This document shows positions 5,198-42,663 of a stretch of DNA of 64,000 bases, piece by piece. Positions within the stretch are counted from its first letter, which is position 1, and the number at the start of each line of letters is the position of its first letter. Location of the stretch: the NCBI RefSeq assembly GCF_000235425.2, contig NZ_KI912266.1:922273-986272 (forward strand). The letters are read 5' to 3'. The position numbers and the translations under genes are program-made. The DNA comes from Pseudofrankia saprophytica (lineage in GTDB: Bacteria; Actinomycetota; Actinomycetes; Frankiales; Frankiaceae). The notes under the pieces are model-generated. The model was not told the origin of the DNA. It saw nothing but the letters and a program-made list of their open reading frames with translations, and searched no databases.

Positions 5198-5992
5198 CGG
5201 GGTGCTGCCTCCGTCCTTTCGAGCGCGGACCGTTCCGGGCGCGAGCGGTCCGAGGTAGAACGTTGACTCAACAACCATCTCGCGCGCCGCGGGCCGGCAA
5301 ACCGCTCCGTCGCGCCACGAAATCCACCACGGGCGGGATGTCGACGTCCGAGACCGAGCGACCTGGACGGCTGGAGCGGCCGACCGGGAACGCACCGGAA
5401 GGCCGGCGGGGACCCGGGCGGCACGGCGGCCACCCGGCACGTTCGAGCCAGACAGGATGTGAGACAGGTCACCGGCAGTCTGCCGTATTGCGTCCGCTTG
5501 AGCTAGATCCGCCATCAGGGCGGTAGGACCGAACGTCCCTATTGACGAATCCGGCCGGGCGTCGGCGAGCGCGCCGCCGCGGCTCGCGAGCGGGATGTCG
5601 AGGCTGGCACGGCTGCCGTATGGTGTAGCCGATCCATTACCGTTACGACTTCACCGCCCCGTCTCCGTCACGCCGATCCCACATGGGCACACACGTGGGG
5701 TTGTCAGCCAGAGCTCTTGGCGCAACGGTGTCCTCGGGCGTCGCGCGCGTACGGGACACGCGAGGACGACCGGCGGGCGTTCGGTGGACCGTTCGGTGGA
5801 CATCGGGGTGTGCCGAGGCGAGCGAGGTGAGCTGGTGCGAGCCGTAGGAACTCAGCCACTGGGTCAGCAGGAGCTGTGGCGCCCCAGCGCGAGCCGCCCC
5901 GCCGCGAGCCGTGCCGGCCGGAGCCGCGCGGCCAGGAGCGCCGCTGGCCCCACCCGCGCGGACGCCGCGCCCCGGCTCACCGGGCGGGCTCG
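5198..5992. other. Non-coding stretch upstream of ligase and receiver genes
   Basis: About 800 bases between the divergent fadD-like and receiver genes. Open frames here have low-complexity Arg/Pro/Ala composition and I do not believe them. A GGAC-N5-GTCC partial palindrome occurs at 5526-5538. Promoters for both flanking genes must lie here, but I cannot place them. Confidence 0.4.
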
Positions 5993-6628
5993 ATGATCTC
6001 GCCGACCAGGCCGGGCTGGCCGGCGATGGCGACGAGCGGCCCCACGGCGGCCATCGGGCGCCCCGTGGCCAGGGCAGCCGTCGCCGCACCCGAAGCGGCC
6101 CCCAGCGGTACCCGCTCCGGCGACACCCAGCCGCGGGCGCTCGTCGTCGACGACAACGACATGATCAGGACGCTGGTCAGCCGACTGCTGCGCCACGAGG
6201 GGCACTCGGTGGATGTGGCCGCCTCGGTCGAGGACGCGCTGGCCCTGCCGACGACCGACTACCAGACGCTCATCATCGACGTGCGGCTCGGCTCCGGGAG
6301 CGGAACCGACCTGATCGAGCGGCTGCGCGCGCAGGACCCGTCCACGCCCGCCCGCTGCCTGCTGCTGACCGGCGGGATCGACGACGACCTGCCGCGGGAT
6401 GTCGCGGTGCTGCGCAAGCCGTTCAGCGCCGACGACCTGATCACCGCCGTGCACGGCCTGCGAGGCGCGTGCCGACCAGCGGCGCAACTGGCCGCCGGCC
6501 CACCCGAGCCACCGGCGCAGACCGGCCCGATGGCGACGGTCGTCGCTACTACCACCATGATCCCTTCCGTGCCGCCCGGCCCGGTACCCACGCCCCGGCC
6601 AGTCGACAGTCCCCGAGGGGCGTCGTGA
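5993..6628 (+). CDS. Single-domain response regulator (receiver only)
   Basis: CheY-like receiver from ~48 to ~165 in a 211-residue protein: acidic pair D53/D54 in LVVDDND, phospho-acceptor D96 in LIIDVRLG, the LLLTGG switch Thr, and the conserved Lys in VLRKPFS. The first ~45 and last ~45 residues are Ala/Pro-rich and there is no output domain. I chose the ATG at 5993, after a GGGCGGG; an in-frame ATG at 6023 and an upstream ATG at 5876 are alternatives. The stop overlaps the GTG of the next gene (GTGA), so it is translationally coupled to the degenerate kinase. It probably relays phosphate or acts through protein binding. Confidence 0.82.
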   Translation: MISPTRPGWPAMATSGPTAAIGRPVARAAVAAPEAAPSGTRSGDTQPRALVVDDNDMIRTLVSRLLRHEGHSVDVAASVEDALALPTTDYQTLIIDVRLGSGSGTDLIERLRAQDPSTPARCLLLTGGIDDDLPRDVAVLRKPFSADDLITAVHGLRGACRPAAQLAAGPPEPPAQTGPMATVVATTTMIPSVPPGPVPTPRPVDSPRGAS

Positions 6629-8070
6629 CCGGCCAGAACCTCGATCTGACCGTCCGAGCCGCGCCCGCCCGCGCGGCGCGCGACCCCCGCCAGCCCGCGC
6701 CAGCCGGCCGGGAGGCGCCACCCGCCGGGCCCGTTGCGATCATGGAAAGGGCGACGGCCGGCCGTTACGGTTTGCCGGTGGTGGATGGCGGATCAGGCGG
6801 CGCATGGCCCAGCAGGCAGGCGGCCGGCGTCATCGCCGTGTCCGCCTCCGCTCCCCCCCGCTCGACGCCCGACACCAGGCCGCCCGACACCAGGCCGGTG
6901 GCCACCGCCGAGGTGCGGGCCACCATCCCGGCCCGGCCAGAGGCGTCCCCCACGGCGCCGGCCCCAGTGGACGACCCGGTGGACCCGGTGAGTGAGAGTG
7001 CCCGCCTGCTGCTGCGGCTGATGGTCGCCAACCAGGAACGCGAGCAGCGCCACCTGGGCGACGTCTTCCACGACGGGCCGATCCAGGACTTCACGGCGGT
7101 GCTGCTGGCCTGCTCCGCCGTGCGCCGCACCCTCACCGGGCCGGAGGCCGAGCGGCTGGCCGACGTGGAGGCTCAGCTGCGCGGGGCCATCACCACGCTG
7201 CGCCTGCCGCCGCCGGCGTTCCGGGCCAGCAACGACGCTCGAATGATCCTGGAGTCGGCGCTGGCGAGCCGGGTGCACGGGCCGCTCACGCGGACGCTGG
7301 AGACGGTGATCGAGGTCGGCGACCCGGCGCCGACGCGCGCCGAGATCGCCGAGCTGCTGGGCGCCCTCCAGATCCTGCTGCTCGAGAGCGACCCGCTGCG
7401 GCCGGCCGCGAACGCCGCCGTGACCATCCGGTCGGGCAACGAGGGCCTGGCGCTGACGCTGCACGTGATGCCCGACCCCATGTCGGCCGCGGCGAGTCCC
7501 GACGCCGCCAGGGACGCGGGCGCCAGGACCGACCGGTTGAGCCGGGTCGCCGCGCTGACCGGCGCCCAGATCAGCGAGGAGGCACCGGGCGGTTCCTGGC
7601 GGGCGTCGCTGGCGTGGCCCCGGCCGGCCCCCGCCCCCCGGTGGCCCATACCCGCATCGAGCAGCGCCCTGGCCTCGCCGCCTACCAGCCGCGCCCGGCC
7701 GACAACCACGACGGCGTCGGCTGACGGTCGCCGTGCCGCCGGCGCCGTCCGCGCCGGGACCAGCCCCATCGGGGCCAGCCGCGTCGAGGTGCGGTGGCCG
7801 GTGCCCACGATCCGGTACGCCCATCCGCTAGCCCGGAGGGGCGGGAGACGGGCGGGTGAGCCCGGGGACCGGAAGCTTGGCGAGCAGGTCGAGGAACGCG
7901 GCCGCCCGCGGCGGGAAGGCCGCTCTGGCGTAGCCGACGACCGCGACGACCGGAGCGTCGGCCAGCTCGACCCGGCGCGGCGCGAGGTCCGCGCTCACGG
8001 CCACGTTCGGGACCAGCGCGACCCCGACCCCGGCCGCCGCGAGCCGCGCGGCCGCGTCCACGGTGCGTGA
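6625..8070 (+). CDS. Degenerate HisKA_3-type histidine kinase-like protein
   Basis: 481 residues starting at a GTG overlapping the receiver gene's stop. After ~120 low-complexity residues comes a DHp helix with an H-box FHDGPIQ (His149) typical of NarL-type kinases. The expected ATPase domain follows (LLGALQILLLESDPL, then ISEEAPGGSWRASLAWP), but the N-box Asn and the glycine-rich G1/G2 loops are not recognisable, so ATP binding is doubtful. The frame continues ~150 residues beyond the domain as an Arg-rich tail and overlaps the opposite-strand LysR gene by 243 nt. It may be a phosphotransfer or scaffold partner of the receiver. The gene is fairly sure; its C-terminal extent is not. Confidence 0.62.
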   Translation: MTGQNLDLTVRAAPARAARDPRQPAPAGREAPPAGPVAIMERATAGRYGLPVVDGGSGGAWPSRQAAGVIAVSASAPPRSTPDTRPPDTRPVATAEVRATIPARPEASPTAPAPVDDPVDPVSESARLLLRLMVANQEREQRHLGDVFHDGPIQDFTAVLLACSAVRRTLTGPEAERLADVEAQLRGAITTLRLPPPAFRASNDARMILESALASRVHGPLTRTLETVIEVGDPAPTRAEIAELLGALQILLLESDPLRPAANAAVTIRSGNEGLALTLHVMPDPMSAAASPDAARDAGARTDRLSRVAALTGAQISEEAPGGSWRASLAWPRPAPAPRWPIPASSSALASPPTSRARPTTTTASADGRRAAGAVRAGTSPIGASRVEVRWPVPTIRYAHPLARRGGRRAGEPGDRKLGEQVEERGRPRREGRSGVADDRDDRSVGQLDPARREVRAHGHVRDQRDPDPGRREPRGRVHGA

Positions 8071-10844: not shown

Positions 10845-12245
10845 TTACGGACGGGCGCCGGCGCCTCGGGAGACCGTCGAGGGGGCGGGTGACTGGACGC
10901 GGGAACGGCGGGCGCCGGCGGACCGGGACGGCGCGCCGTCGAGCCGTCGATGACAGATCCACAGCGCGTCCGGGGCCGCCGAGTCCCCGGGCGGGGACGC
11001 CAGTGGGGTCGCGGACCAGGCCGTTTCCTCCAGGCGGGCCGGCTCGCCGGCCGTCGCCCTGGTCACCGCGGGTCCGCGCGGCCCGGGCGGATCGCAGGCG
11101 GGTAGTAGCAGGCTGACGGTGGTGCCGAGGCCGACCGCCGAGGAGATCTGAGCCTCGCCACCGGCCTGGGTGACGACGTCGTGGACCACCGCGAGGCCGA
11201 GACCGGTACCGGAGTCCTCTGGCTTGGTCGTGAAGAACGGCTCGAACGCGCGCGCCCGCGTCGCCGGCGTCATCCCGGTGCCCGTGTCGGTCACCCACAG
11301 GCTCACGAAACGCCGCCCTGGCAGGTCCGCGCCCACTTCCTGGTCGCCGGCCGGCTCGGCGCCTCCCGCCGGCGCCCAGGAGGCCACGGAGGCGGCAGAG
11401 GCCTGGGAGGACGGGGAGGACGGCGCCGCTTCCGGTGGGCCGCCGAGCACGACGTTGCCGGCCGTCACCGTCAGCGTGCCACCCTGCGGCATCGCGTCGC
11501 GGGCGTTCATCGCCAGATTGATGATCGCCTGCTCCAGCCTCGCCCGGTCGGCGGACACGAGCCACAGGTCGTCGTCGAGCTCGACCCGGACGTCGATCCG
11601 CTCGCCGAGCGGGCGGCGCAGCATGCCGACCGTCTCGCGGACGACCGCGCACAGATCGACGGCGCCGAGCTCGGCCGGCTTGCGGCGGACGACGGCCAGC
11701 AGCTGGGCCGTGAGCTCGGCCGCCCGCTCGCCCGCGTGCTGGATCTGCGCCACGTCGTGGCGCAGGGCCTCCCAGTCGACCGGGCCGCCGGCGTCCCGAG
11801 CGGTCCGGTCGGCCTCGGCGGCCGCGTCCAGCGCGTCACCGACGAACACGGCATAGTTCCTGATCACCGACAGCAGGTTGTTGACGTCGTGCGCCACGGC
11901 CCCGGTGACCCGACCAAGATCCTCCAGCCGAGCCGGGTCACCCGGCTCGGCGGCGTCCCGGCGGAGACCAACGGCAGCGAGCCCGTCGGAGACGATCGCA
12001 TCTACAGGCTGGCCGATGAGGTCATCGTGGGCGTAACCGAGCAGCGCGGCGGCGCGGGCGTTCACCGCGGCAATCTTGCCATCCGCGCGCACCGCGACGG
12101 CTGGGTCGGGAACCGTCTCCAGCCAGCCACGGGCGGCGTAGTCGGTCTCGCTGTTCAGCGCCACCACCCCGATGTGGTCCTGGTGTACGCGGTCCGCCCC
12201 GGTTGCTGACCCCTCGGCCAGGTCCAAGCGGTCCGTCACATCCAT
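10845..12245 (-). CDS. PAS-domain sensor histidine kinase (HisKA/HATPase)
   Basis: Numbered from an upstream TTG at 12266: PAS-like region ~45-110 (GWLETVPDPAVAVRADGKIAAVNARAAALLGY), H-box AVAHDVNN with His126, N-box INLAMNARDAMP, G1 VTDTGTGMTP, and G2 GTGLGLAVVHDVV. I prefer the ATG at 12245 (466 aa). There are no membrane segments, so it is cytoplasmic. An Ala/Ser-rich insertion separates the N and G1 boxes, and the ~80-residue C-terminal tail is low complexity. It is divergent from the receiver-cyclase fusion, its likeliest partner, and may link an intracellular signal to cyclic nucleotide production. Confidence 0.88.
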   Translation of the reverse strand: MDVTDRLDLAEGSATGADRVHQDHIGVVALNSETDYAARGWLETVPDPAVAVRADGKIAAVNARAAALLGYAHDDLIGQPVDAIVSDGLAAVGLRRDAAEPGDPARLEDLGRVTGAVAHDVNNLLSVIRNYAVFVGDALDAAAEADRTARDAGGPVDWEALRHDVAQIQHAGERAAELTAQLLAVVRRKPAELGAVDLCAVVRETVGMLRRPLGERIDVRVELDDDLWLVSADRARLEQAIINLAMNARDAMPQGGTLTVTAGNVVLGGPPEAAPSSPSSQASAASVASWAPAGGAEPAGDQEVGADLPGRRFVSLWVTDTGTGMTPATRARAFEPFFTTKPEDSGTGLGLAVVHDVVTQAGGEAQISSAVGLGTTVSLLLPACDPPGPRGPAVTRATAGEPARLEETAWSATPLASPPGDSAAPDALWICHRRLDGAPSRSAGARRSRVQSPAPSTVSRGAGARP

Positions 12246-12615
12246 CAAGGAAACTCGCCACCCCAAACTCTCTGCCGGAGCGTAGCGCGCCTGCTACGCC
12301 AGAGCGCGGGCTCGCGGACGATCTTCCCTCAGGACCGCACTCCAGTGCCGATCGAAGTGCCGATCGGCCAGTAACAACAAGAACGGGCAAATTACCCCAT
12401 TGGTGCCAAGGTTCGCCGGAACACGCGGGGCGGCTACCGGTCGCCGCCCTCGCCCGATTTGCCCGTTCGCGTTGGGACAGTGCGGTTACCGGGCGACGGG
12501 ACGCCGCGAACCGATGTCCACGAGTCATCCCCAAAAGGAATGTGGTGCTGGCACCACCGTGCCGGTGGTCCCACCGCCCTGTGCATCGGGTCACCAACAG
12601 GGCTGAATTAGCACC
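12246..12615. promoter_or_regulatory. Divergent control region of kinase and receiver-cyclase
   Basis: About 370 bases without a gene. It holds a 10-bp direct repeat GTGCCGATCG at 12345-12354 and 12357-12366, an 11-bp inverted repeat AACGGGCAAAT/ATTTGCCCGTT at 12382-12392 and 12457-12467, and a 7-bp stem with a 3-nt loop at 12553-12569 in the leader of the cyclase gene. No clear Shine-Dalgarno precedes the ATG at 12616. Confidence 0.5.
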
Positions 12616-14178
12616 ATGGAGCAGATCGGGGTGCTGCTTGCGGACGACAACTTGATCGTCCGAGCCGGGGTGCGGGCGTTGCTCGCCCGGGTGCCTGGGT
12701 TGACCGTGGTCGGCGTCGCCGCCGACCGAGACGAGCTTGTCCAACTTGCCCGCACTCGCCGACCGCGGGTCGTGGTCACGGACATCCGGATGCCGCCGAC
12801 CTTTTCCGATGAAGGGGTCGATGCCGCCCGCGAGATCCGTCACTACGCGCCTGGAACTGGCGTGGTGCTGCTCTCCCAGTACGACGAGCCGGAGTATGCG
12901 ATCGGTCTGCTGGCCGGCGCCGACGCAGGTGGCTGTGCCTACCTGCTCAAGGAGCGCCTAGCCGATCCGGAGATCCTGGTGCGGGCCATCCGGGAGGTGG
13001 CAGCCGGTTCGTCGATGCTCGACCCGGAGATCGTCGCCGCCGTACTCAGCCCGGTTCGCGACGCGGCCGACCTCAGCGATGACCAGGCACAACTCCTGCG
13101 CGACGTCGCCGAGGGCCGGTCGATCCGGGTGATCGCCGAACGCCGCGGCGACACACCGGAAGCGGTGAACAGCGCTATCGATGCGACGCTGCTCCGACTG
13201 GCTCAGGGCGCCAGCAACGGTCGGTCCGGCGCGCTGCGGCAGCTCCGGCTGCTGCATGCCGCGATCGTGCGCCGCGAGGAGCAGGGCGAGGCGCTGTCCC
13301 GGCTGCTGCCCGGTGGCCTCGCCGAGAAGCTGCGGTCCGACGCCGGCGCCGGCCAGCGCACCGAGCGCCTCGTGGTCACCGTGCTGATGTCGGACATCCG
13401 CGGCTACACCTCGATCGCCGAGCGGGCAGACCCGATGGTGCTGGCGGGCCTCCTCGACGCGCACCGTCGCGAGATGAACGCGGCGATCCTCGATGAGGGC
13501 GGAACCGTCCTGCAGTACGCGGGCGACGCCGTCATCGCCGTCTTCGGCGCTCCCTACCCCCAGGACGACCACCAGACCAGGGCCGCGCGGGCGGCGGTCG
13601 CGATGCATGCGCGGCAGCGCACCCTCAACGTTCGCTGGGAGCTGGAGGGGCTCGCGCCCTTCGGCCTCGGCATCGGCGTGAGCACCGGTGAGGTCGCGGC
13701 GGCGCTGCTCGGCTCGGACGCGCGCCGCGAGTACACCCTGGTCGGCGACACCATGAACCTCGCGGCCCGGCTCCAGGCGTTCGCCCACGCCGGCCAGACC
13801 GTCCTGTCCGAACCGACCGCCAGTGCGCTGCGCGGTGAATACGGCGCCCGCCTCGTGCCGCTGCCCCCGATGACCGTGAAGGGCAGGGCCGGCTCCGTCG
13901 CGGCCTACCTGATGGAGGCCCAGACCCGCATCCCCAGCCAGGCCACGCGTCAGCCGTCGGTACCGGAGCCCATGCCGGCCCAGCCTCAAGCCCGCCGGCC
14001 GGCTCCGGCCCTGTCCGCGCCCACGGTGCTCACCCCGGCCGCGGCGCTCGCCCGGCCGGCGGCGCCGGCACTGGCCGGGGCCACCGCGCCTGGCACTCCC
14101 GGGGCCCATCCGTTCCCGCCGCCGCGCCCACGCCCCCACGCCGCCGCGCCCATCCGCCCGACCATCTGCCCGGCCTGA
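12616..14178 (+). CDS. Response regulator fused to class III adenylate/guanylate cyclase
   Basis: 520 residues with a rare order. A NarL-like receiver spans 1-135 (D10/D11, phospho-acceptor D56 in VVTDIRMP, K112 in LLKER). A LuxR-like helical segment follows at 152-198 (LSDDQAQLLRDVAEGRSIRVIAERRG). A class III cyclase catalytic domain spans ~250-435: metal Asp260 (MSDIRGYTS) and Asp304 (AGDAVIAVFG), transition-state Asn381 and Arg385 (GDTMNLAARL). The position usually held by an adenine-selecting Lys (KF.GD) reads Q299. The C-terminal ~85 residues are Pro/Ala-rich. It probably makes a cyclic nucleotide under phosphorelay control from the divergent kinase. Confidence 0.88.
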   Translation: MEQIGVLLADDNLIVRAGVRALLARVPGLTVVGVAADRDELVQLARTRRPRVVVTDIRMPPTFSDEGVDAAREIRHYAPGTGVVLLSQYDEPEYAIGLLAGADAGGCAYLLKERLADPEILVRAIREVAAGSSMLDPEIVAAVLSPVRDAADLSDDQAQLLRDVAEGRSIRVIAERRGDTPEAVNSAIDATLLRLAQGASNGRSGALRQLRLLHAAIVRREEQGEALSRLLPGGLAEKLRSDAGAGQRTERLVVTVLMSDIRGYTSIAERADPMVLAGLLDAHRREMNAAILDEGGTVLQYAGDAVIAVFGAPYPQDDHQTRAARAAVAMHARQRTLNVRWELEGLAPFGLGIGVSTGEVAAALLGSDARREYTLVGDTMNLAARLQAFAHAGQTVLSEPTASALRGEYGARLVPLPPMTVKGRAGSVAAYLMEAQTRIPSQATRQPSVPEPMPAQPQARRPAPALSAPTVLTPAAALARPAAPALAGATAPGTPGAHPFPPPRPRPHAAAPIRPTICPA

Positions 14179-20857: not shown

Positions 20858-22174
20858 GTGCCGTCGAGCACTGATCCATTAGGGTGTGCGCGATCCTTCC
20901 CGAAGGCTCTGTTGAATGATCGACAGCTGGGAAGGGAACCGGGGTTGCTGTTCGTCGGGGATGACTGGGCCGAGGCCCATCACGACATCGAGATCCAGGA
21001 CGAGACCGGCCGGCGGCTCGTGCGCCGTCGGCTGCCGGAGGGCGTGGCCGGGATCGCCGAGCTGCACGGCCTGATCGCCGACCATCTGGGCGATGGGGAC
21101 GAGCCTGCGGCGGTGGTGGTCGGGATCGAGACCGACCGTGGGCCGTGGGTCGGCGCGCTGGCCGCGGCCGGCTACCAGGTCTATGCGATCAATCCGCTGT
21201 CCGCGGCCCGGTACCGGGAACGGCACGTCACCTCGGGGGCGAAAAGCGACGCCGGCGACGCGAAGGTGCTCGCGGACCTGGTCCGCACCGACCGGGCCAA
21301 CCACCGGCCCATCGCCGGGGACAGCGAGCTCGCCGAGGCGGTCAAGGTCCTGGCCCGCACGCACCAGAACCTGATCTGGTCGCGCCAACGGCAGGCGAAC
21401 CTGCTGCGCTCGACGCTGCGGGAGTTCTACCCGGCCGCGCTGGTGGCGTTCGGCGGTGAGCTGTCCGGCCGTGACGCCCTGGCCGTCCTGGAGATCGCCC
21501 CCACCCCGACCCGAGGCCGGGGACTGTCGACGGCGCGGATCGTCTCCGCGCTACGCCGCGCCGGCCGCCAGCGCTACCTCGACAGACGTGCCGGACAGAT
21601 CCGCGACGCCCTGCGCACCGACCAGCTGGCGGCGGCGCCGCTGGTCGCCGACGCCTACGGCCACACCGTGACCGCGCTGGTCGCCGTCCTGGCCACCCTC
21701 ACCACCCAGATCGAGCAGGTCGAAAGCGAGCTGGCCCAGTGTTTTGACCAGCACCCGGACGCGAGGATCCTGCTCTCCCAGCCAGGGCTGGGAGCGGTCC
21801 TCGCCGCCCGGGTGCTCGCCGAGTTCGGAGACGACCCCGATCGCTACACCGACGCCAGGGCCCGCAAGAACTACGCCGGCACCGCCCCGATCACCCGCGC
21901 CTCCGGCACCCGGCGGATCGTGCTCGCCCGCGTCGCGGTCAACAAACGACTACGCGACGCCCTCTACCTGCAGGCCTTCGCCGCGCTGGGCGTCTCTCCA
22001 GGAGCGAGGGCCTACTACGACGCCCACCGCGCCCGCGGCGCCACCCACCACCAGGCCCTACGCGCACTGTCGAACCGGCTCGTCGGCATCCTCCACGGCT
22101 GCCTACGCCACCACACCCCTTACGACGAAGCCACCGCCTGGCCCAGCCAGACCGACCAGAAGATCGCCGCTTGA
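20858..22174 (+). mobile_element. IS110-family transposase gene
   Basis: 438-residue DEDD transposase. The N-terminal RuvC-like domain has D35 or D36 (FVGDDW), E91 (VGIETD), and D131 and D134 (KSDAGDAKVLADLV). The C-terminal Transposase_20 region carries LSQPGLGAVLAARVLAEFG and the NYAGTAPITRASG block with the family's Ser. The frame is intact, so the element may be active. The GTG at 20858 is the longest start; a TTG at 20945 is plausible. IS110 elements lack clear terminal inverted repeats and I found no certain ends; they should lie in 20710-20857 and 22175-22342. Confidence 0.92.
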
Positions 22175-42018: not shown

Positions 42019-42663
42019 GTGCGCGTTCTCGTGGTCGATGACCACCCGTTGTTCCGCGAGGGGCTGACCATCGCGATCGAGACGATGCCCGACGTCGAGG
42101 TCGTCGGTGAGGCGGGCGACGGTGACGAGGCCGTCGAGGCCACCGGACGGCTCGCGCCCGACATCGTCGTGATGGACCTGCACATGCCCGGAACCAATGG
42201 CATCGACGCGACCAGACGGATCGTCGGCGCGCACCCCGGCGTGGCTGTCCTCGTCCTGACGATGCTCGATGGCGATGACTCGGTGTTCGCGGCGATGCGC
42301 GCCGGCGCCCGCGGCTACCTGCTCAAGGGCGCCGACCGCCAGGAGATCGCCCGCGCGCTGCGCGCCGTCGCCGCCGGCGAGGTGGTCTTCAGCGCGGCGA
42401 TCGCGAGCAGGGTGCTCGCCTGGTTCGCCAGCGGCGGGCGGGGGGCGCTCGCCCCGTTCCCCGAGCTCACCGACCGGGAGCGGGAGATCCTCGACCTGGT
42501 CGCCCGCGGCCTCACGAACCCGGCCATCGCCCGCCGGCTGCACCTGTCCGACAAGACCATCCGTAACCACGTCTCGAACGTCTTCACCAAGCTTCAGGTC
42601 GCCGACCGCGCGGAGGCCGTCGCCAGAGCCCGCGACGCCGGCCTAGGCACCGGTCCGCTGTAG
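42019..42663 (+). CDS. NarL/LuxR-family response regulator
   Basis: 214 residues from a GTG 7 nt after the kinase stop. Receiver with D7/D8, phospho-acceptor D53 (VVMDLHMPG), and Lys in YLLKGAD. LuxR HTH ~148-210 (LTDREREILDLVARGLTNPAIARRLHLSDKTIRNHVSNVFTKL). It is the cognate regulator of the adjacent kinase. Confidence 0.95.
   Translation: MRVLVVDDHPLFREGLTIAIETMPDVEVVGEAGDGDEAVEATGRLAPDIVVMDLHMPGTNGIDATRRIVGAHPGVAVLVLTMLDGDDSVFAAMRAGARGYLLKGADRQEIARALRAVAAGEVVFSAAIASRVLAWFASGGRGALAPFPELTDREREILDLVARGLTNPAIARRLHLSDKTIRNHVSNVFTKLQVADRAEAVARARDAGLGTGPL

Follow-up and report, generated by a model that had tools for sequence, protein, structure and literature searches.

The window analysed here is a 64,000-nt stretch of Pseudofrankia saprophytica contig NZ_KI912266.1, and the coordinates given below are window positions unless another locus is named. 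On the forward strand, positions 12616-14178 carry an uninterrupted open reading frame that begins with ATG and encodes a protein of 520 amino acids. Pfam matched this protein to Response_reg at residues 6-113 (1.1e-13) and to Guanylate_cyc at residues 254-434 (4.4e-21). NCBIfam models for NarL/UvrY-type regulators extend from residue 4 to residue ~176-187 and thus reach into the helical segment behind the receiver, indicating that this segment is what is left of a NarL-type output domain. Five regions, all on the forward strand, were delimited along the chain. A NarL-type receiver occupies residues 1-130 (12616..13005; Pfam and alignments with NarL, DevR and VraR) and is followed by a degenerate GerE/LuxR helix-turn-helix at residues 150-200 (13063..13215; hhalign against true GerE domains and predicted helices). 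The N-terminal linker or transducer of the cyclase, which includes LSRLLPGGLAEKLR, was placed at residues 201-248 (13216..13359) by alignment and predicted helices, and the class III nucleotide cyclase catalytic domain at residues 249-436 (13360..13923) by Pfam, fold match and residue counts. The remaining residues, ~437-520 (13924..14175), form a Pro/Ala-rich low-complexity tail that the alignment found only in the closest relatives. A sequence-only reading of this DNA had proposed that a receiver, a LuxR-like helical segment and a class III cyclase are fused in one 520-residue chain, and the reading frame, the Pfam and NCBIfam matches and relatives with the same layout bear this out. The residues it had singled out, D56, D260, D304, N381 and R385, all lie at the positions it gave and are invariant in 34 relatives. 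Since the same three-part architecture is conserved over two phyla, in dozens of independent loci, a chance reading frame or an assembly fusion was ruled out.

Full-length relatives, 55-96% identical, were found in Pseudofrankia, Frankia, Planotetraspora, MAGs of Nitriliruptoraceae and of other Actinomycetota, and MAGs of Dormibacterota. The source genome is ~10 Mb in size, in two contigs of 8.19 and 1.79 Mb, and a second full-length copy of the cyclase gene, 60% identical to the window copy, is encoded on contig C2. Of 396 evenly sampled Actinomycetota genomes, 18 have the cyclase family. Window-type copies form one supported Frankiaceae clade of 12 rows (100/99), which lies among the module-type copies of Frankiaceae and Planotetraspora that are described below. 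Short homologs that consist of the cyclase domain only, without receiver and helix-turn-helix, were also observed in some Frankiaceae (L026, L027, L028 and L029) and have no bearing on how receiver and cyclase are coupled.

The neighbourhood of the C2 copy and of the distant relatives links the cyclase to a putative receptor. At C2, and in almost every distant relative whose flanking sequence was long enough, the divergent neighbour gene encodes a protein that carries a cNMP_binding domain at its C terminus (Pfam 5.7e-15). This domain has the cyclic nucleotide-binding (CNB) fold, with Z up to 13.7 and an rmsd of 2.5 over 116 residues, and a phosphate-binding cassette of the Gly-Glu...Arg kind, whose invariant G-E-R...R-T aligned to GE...RTAT of PKG I CNB-A. 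The N-terminal ~220 residues had no Pfam match, and all listed matches to solved structures and PDB profiles fell on the CNB domain, none giving a known fold for the N-terminal part. The Arg-Thr pair is also present in cAMP-preferring channels and thus does not point to one particular ligand of the receptor. The clusters carry GAF-HisKA_3 kinases, HisKA_3 kinases being present in most module loci, as well as a small receiver and a NarL-type regulator whose GerE domain is intact; part of them also carry an ABC ATPase and FtsX permeases. The C2 copy itself (G000:C2:680000-690000, L030) clusters with an ABC ATPase, two FtsX permeases and a HisKA_3 kinase, which suggests that the transporter is part of sensing or response at this cluster. 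Members of the receptor family (L030:9929-11101 on the forward strand and homologs in L042-L071) were also seen beside class III cyclases of other architecture.

The same association was apparent at the genome level. Among the 396 genomes, the receptor family occurs in 30 and the cyclase family in 18, and 16 genomes have both against 1.4 expected (hypergeometric p ~1.6e-18, with kinship uncorrected). G184 has the cyclase without a receptor hit, and in G232 the contig is too short to tell. Several receptor-only genomes (L188-L191 and L193) have a different class III cyclase near the receptor gene. Within the sample of Frankiaceae and their relatives, no genome without a module-type cyclase copy had the receptor gene. 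Judged from gene order and co-occurrence, kinase, cyclase regulator and receptor appear to constitute a conserved module in Actinomycetota and Dormibacterota.

In the window, the place of the receptor gene is taken by a kinase gene. A divergent intergenic region of 349 bp (12267..12615) separates the cyclase gene from a gene on the reverse strand (10845..12266, start codon uncertain) that encodes a PAS histidine kinase (Pfam PAS 3.7e-06, HATPase_c 1.3e-18). Its H-box (AHDVNN), N-box and G-boxes are intact by eye, and its HisKA match is weak (0.058, Pfam). A homolog of this kinase gene adjoins the cyclase gene in 12 of 12 window-type Frankiaceae loci, and the other neighbours vary between genera. 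The kinase is therefore the probable partner of the window cyclase regulator. NarL-type receivers are usually partnered by HisKA_3 kinases, and because the HisKA match of the window kinase is weak, the true partner kinase may lie elsewhere. Because the tree was rooted at its midpoint, we can only infer the direction of the exchange between receptor and kinase genes; the PAS kinase gene would have replaced the receptor gene in the window-type clade. Nearby, the ORF at 5911-8070 (+) contains a HisKA_3-like dimerisation segment with an FHDGP box (7069..7203, +; weak Pfam HisKA_3 match, 0.019, and 0.00029 for the homolog in L041), and Pfam recognised no ATPase domain in it. Synteny showed that its homolog is retained near the cyclase gene in the Frankiaceae loci compared, and its product is possibly a pseudokinase or a phosphotransfer protein. 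Elsewhere in the window, another NarL-type receiver gene lies at 42019-42567 (+), its product 36% identical to residues 4-186 of the cyclase regulator, and the sole Rfam hit in the window is a match to the Actinobacteria sRNA Ms_AS-4 at 21778-21859 (-), 75 bits.

We then considered the segment between receiver and cyclase. Pfam gave no GerE match for the window protein at E<=1 and weak matches in 11 of 25 relatives, the best at 0.0013. When the profile of the segment was compared in hhalign with a true-GerE profile built from the NarL-type regulators of the fetched loci, the two matched with 97.6% probability (E 2.8e-12). In an AlphaFold2 model, a monomer of moderate confidence (mean pLDDT 70, low at 221-249, with the linker <50), helices at 155-165, 170-177, 181-200 and 204-222 follow the GerE order, and the last GerE-like helix runs towards the cyclase linker. 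Full-length structures of VraR, DesR, NarL and LiaR can be aligned to the model across 203-226 columns. The possibility that residues 150-200 are only the usual coiled-coil linker of a cyclase, which had been named as fatal to the initial proposal, was rejected by the predicted helices and the GerE profile match; the usual linker comes after the segment, at ~201-248. The LuxR-like segment of the sequence-only reading is thus GerE-derived.

The residues with which a GerE domain contacts DNA have been lost from this segment. In the recognition helix, at the columns of NarL V189 and H190, Lys is found in 48 of 68 and His in 58 of 68 NarL-type regulators but in 0 of 36 and 0 of 36 members of the cyclase family. 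The column of NarL K192 holds Asp or Glu in 35 of 36 members, and on average the segment carries a net charge of ~-2.8 in the cyclase family versus -0.2 in true GerE domains. The segment is also the least conserved part of the protein, with 6 of 51 positions invariant compared with 45 of 127 in the receiver and 55 of 188 in the cyclase. These features bear on a bifunctional regulator, in which phosphorylation would activate the cyclase and, as happens in NarL-type regulators of the ordinary kind, also enable the helix-turn-helix to bind DNA. The retained GerE fold, the weak GerE matches in relatives and the fact that the segment has been kept and never deleted across two phyla are consistent with such a regulator, and the loss of the recognition residues may still be compatible with an altered DNA specificity; with recognition Lys and His gone, an acidic residue at K192, a negative charge and low conservation all speaking against DNA reading, we regard it as rather improbable. 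The sequence-only reading had left the helical segment as either a coupler or still DNA-binding, and of these the former is favoured at the expense of the latter. Most likely, as far as sequence comparison indicates, the GerE-derived segment serves to couple receiver and cyclase and has ceased to read DNA; the simplest view is that a former DNA-binding domain was reused as a coupler.

The receiver has the full set of residues of its type: the acidic pocket D10/D11, the phosphoacceptor D56 (codon 12781-12783), S87 and K112, all invariant in 34 aligned relatives. The class III cyclase is the only recognisable enzymatic output of the chain, and cyclic nucleotide synthesis as the output of a phosphorelay, as initially suggested, would be its natural reading. 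Alternatively, the receiver could be a dimerisation module that is constitutive or gated by redox state or a metabolite, in which case the cyclase would be independent of phosphorylation and the neighbouring kinase would serve another regulator. The window kinase, a weak HisKA match and not of the HisKA_3 type usual for NarL receivers, would fit this alternative, but the invariance of D10, D11, D56, S87 and K112 would hardly be kept without phosphorylation, and the adjacency of the kinase gene at all window-type loci and the HisKA_3 kinases of the module loci also argue against it, making it quite unlikely.

The catalytic domain retains the hallmarks of class III cyclases. The metal-binding D260 and D304 and the transition-state residues N381 and R385 are invariant in the 34 relatives, the modelled fold matches CyaC, CyaB and Cya2 with Z of 24-25 (24.9 for the catalytic domain of CyaC), and the best sequence match among solved structures is Cya2 (2w01, phmmer 1.7e-26). 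The domain should make a cyclic nucleotide, either cAMP or cGMP. The purine-selecting pair is Q300/T374, in which the first residue is Gln in 34 of 34 members and the partner Thr or Ser; the same columns hold Lys/Thr in the adenylyl cyclase CyaB of P. aeruginosa and Glu/Gly in the guanylyl cyclase Cya2. The substrate-selecting Lys of ATP-specific adenylyl cyclases is thus absent, and these residues single out neither ATP nor GTP as the substrate. A catalytic domain that is inactive or uses another substrate, so that the protein acts as a scaffold or nucleotide sensor, might explain the Gln in place of the purine-selecting Lys but is very unlikely given the intact and invariant fold, metal Asp pair and transition-state Asn and Arg and the linkage of the cyclase to a cyclic nucleotide-binding protein in two phyla. 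We also entertain, as a tentative possibility, that the module is a dedicated relay for cGMP or another non-cAMP messenger, composed of a kinase, a NarL-type regulator with guanylyl-cyclase-like output and a recycled DNA-binding domain as coupler, and a receptor of its own, which would represent a new domain family and has Arg-Thr in its cassette as in cGMP-dependent kinases.

We consider it likely that the protein is a response regulator with enzymatic output, in which a signal would pass from a kinase through D56 and a GerE-derived coupler that does not read DNA to the rate of the cyclase, and that the C2-type module is ancestral and lost its receptor gene to replacement in the window clade. 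In this model D56 would be phosphorylated by a histidine kinase, the most likely candidate in the case of the window copy being the divergently encoded PAS kinase, and phosphorylation would alter the dimerisation of the receiver. The four-helix GerE-derived segment, the last helix of which leads into the cyclase linker, would relay this change to two cyclase domains, whose active site can form only when they pair head to tail. The synthesis of cAMP or cGMP would thereby be set, in whichever direction the regulation runs. In the ancestral module, represented by contig C2 and the distant relatives, the messenger would be received by the divergently encoded protein with the C-terminal CNB domain. 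Because the PAS kinase gene has taken the place of the dedicated receptor gene in the window clade, the messenger there probably acts on other receptors, such as the C2 receptor or Crp-like proteins; besides the C2 receptor, several further cNMP_binding proteins that might respond are encoded in the source genome.

Elements of this design have precedents. NarL/FixJ-type regulators such as NarL, DevR, VraR and DesR share the receiver followed by a GerE-derived domain in the same order, whereas the window protein has lost the recognition residues and its chain runs on into a cyclase. CyaC is a large hybrid protein that includes a kinase domain and GAF/PAS linkers. According to the literature, phosphotransfer activates this class III adenylate cyclase of Spirulina/Anabaena (Kasahara and Ohmori 1999, cited in PMC1183210; PMC4284465). 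The window protein shares with CyaC a class III cyclase linked to a receiver, but it is a compact regulator of NarL type, its coupler derives from GerE, the kinase is encoded by a gene of its own, and Gln stands at the position of the substrate-selecting Lys. Cya2 of Synechocystis is likewise class III and closest by sequence among solved structures, and differs in having Glu/Gly at the positions of Gln300 and Thr/Ser374 in the window family. In the mycobacterial cyclases with a cyclase homology domain (CHD) and a LuxR domain, the cyclase is N-terminal and the LuxR domain C-terminal, and they are not known to have a receiver. Rv0386-type proteins therefore resemble the window protein in having a cyclase and a LuxR-type helix-turn-helix in one chain, and differ in the opposite domain order and in the receiver, which in the window protein precedes the helix-turn-helix and the cyclase. 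A survey of 53 actinobacterial species in 2012 found CHD+LuxR only in Mycobacterium (PMC3466318), and Rv0386, for which an unusual mode of substrate selection is referred to there (ref. 41 in PMC3466318), is also a precedent in this respect.

That a receiver can govern a class III cyclase is thus already known from CyaC, and cyclase-LuxR fusions are known from Mycobacterium. The new part is a NarL-type regulator whose helix-turn-helix became a coupler, together with the conserved cyclase-receptor module; no description of such a receiver-HTH-cyclase protein or of the module was found in the open-access literature, subscription journals being outside the scope of the search. The protein is an apparent natural case of a transcription factor in which, once a new enzyme had been added, the DNA-binding domain stayed on as a mechanical coupler, so that the evolution of response-regulator output can be tested through domain swaps with the NarL regulators of the same clusters. 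Because the receptor gene lies beside the cyclase gene, messenger and target are directly testable in organisms in which cyclic nucleotide signalling has been little studied.
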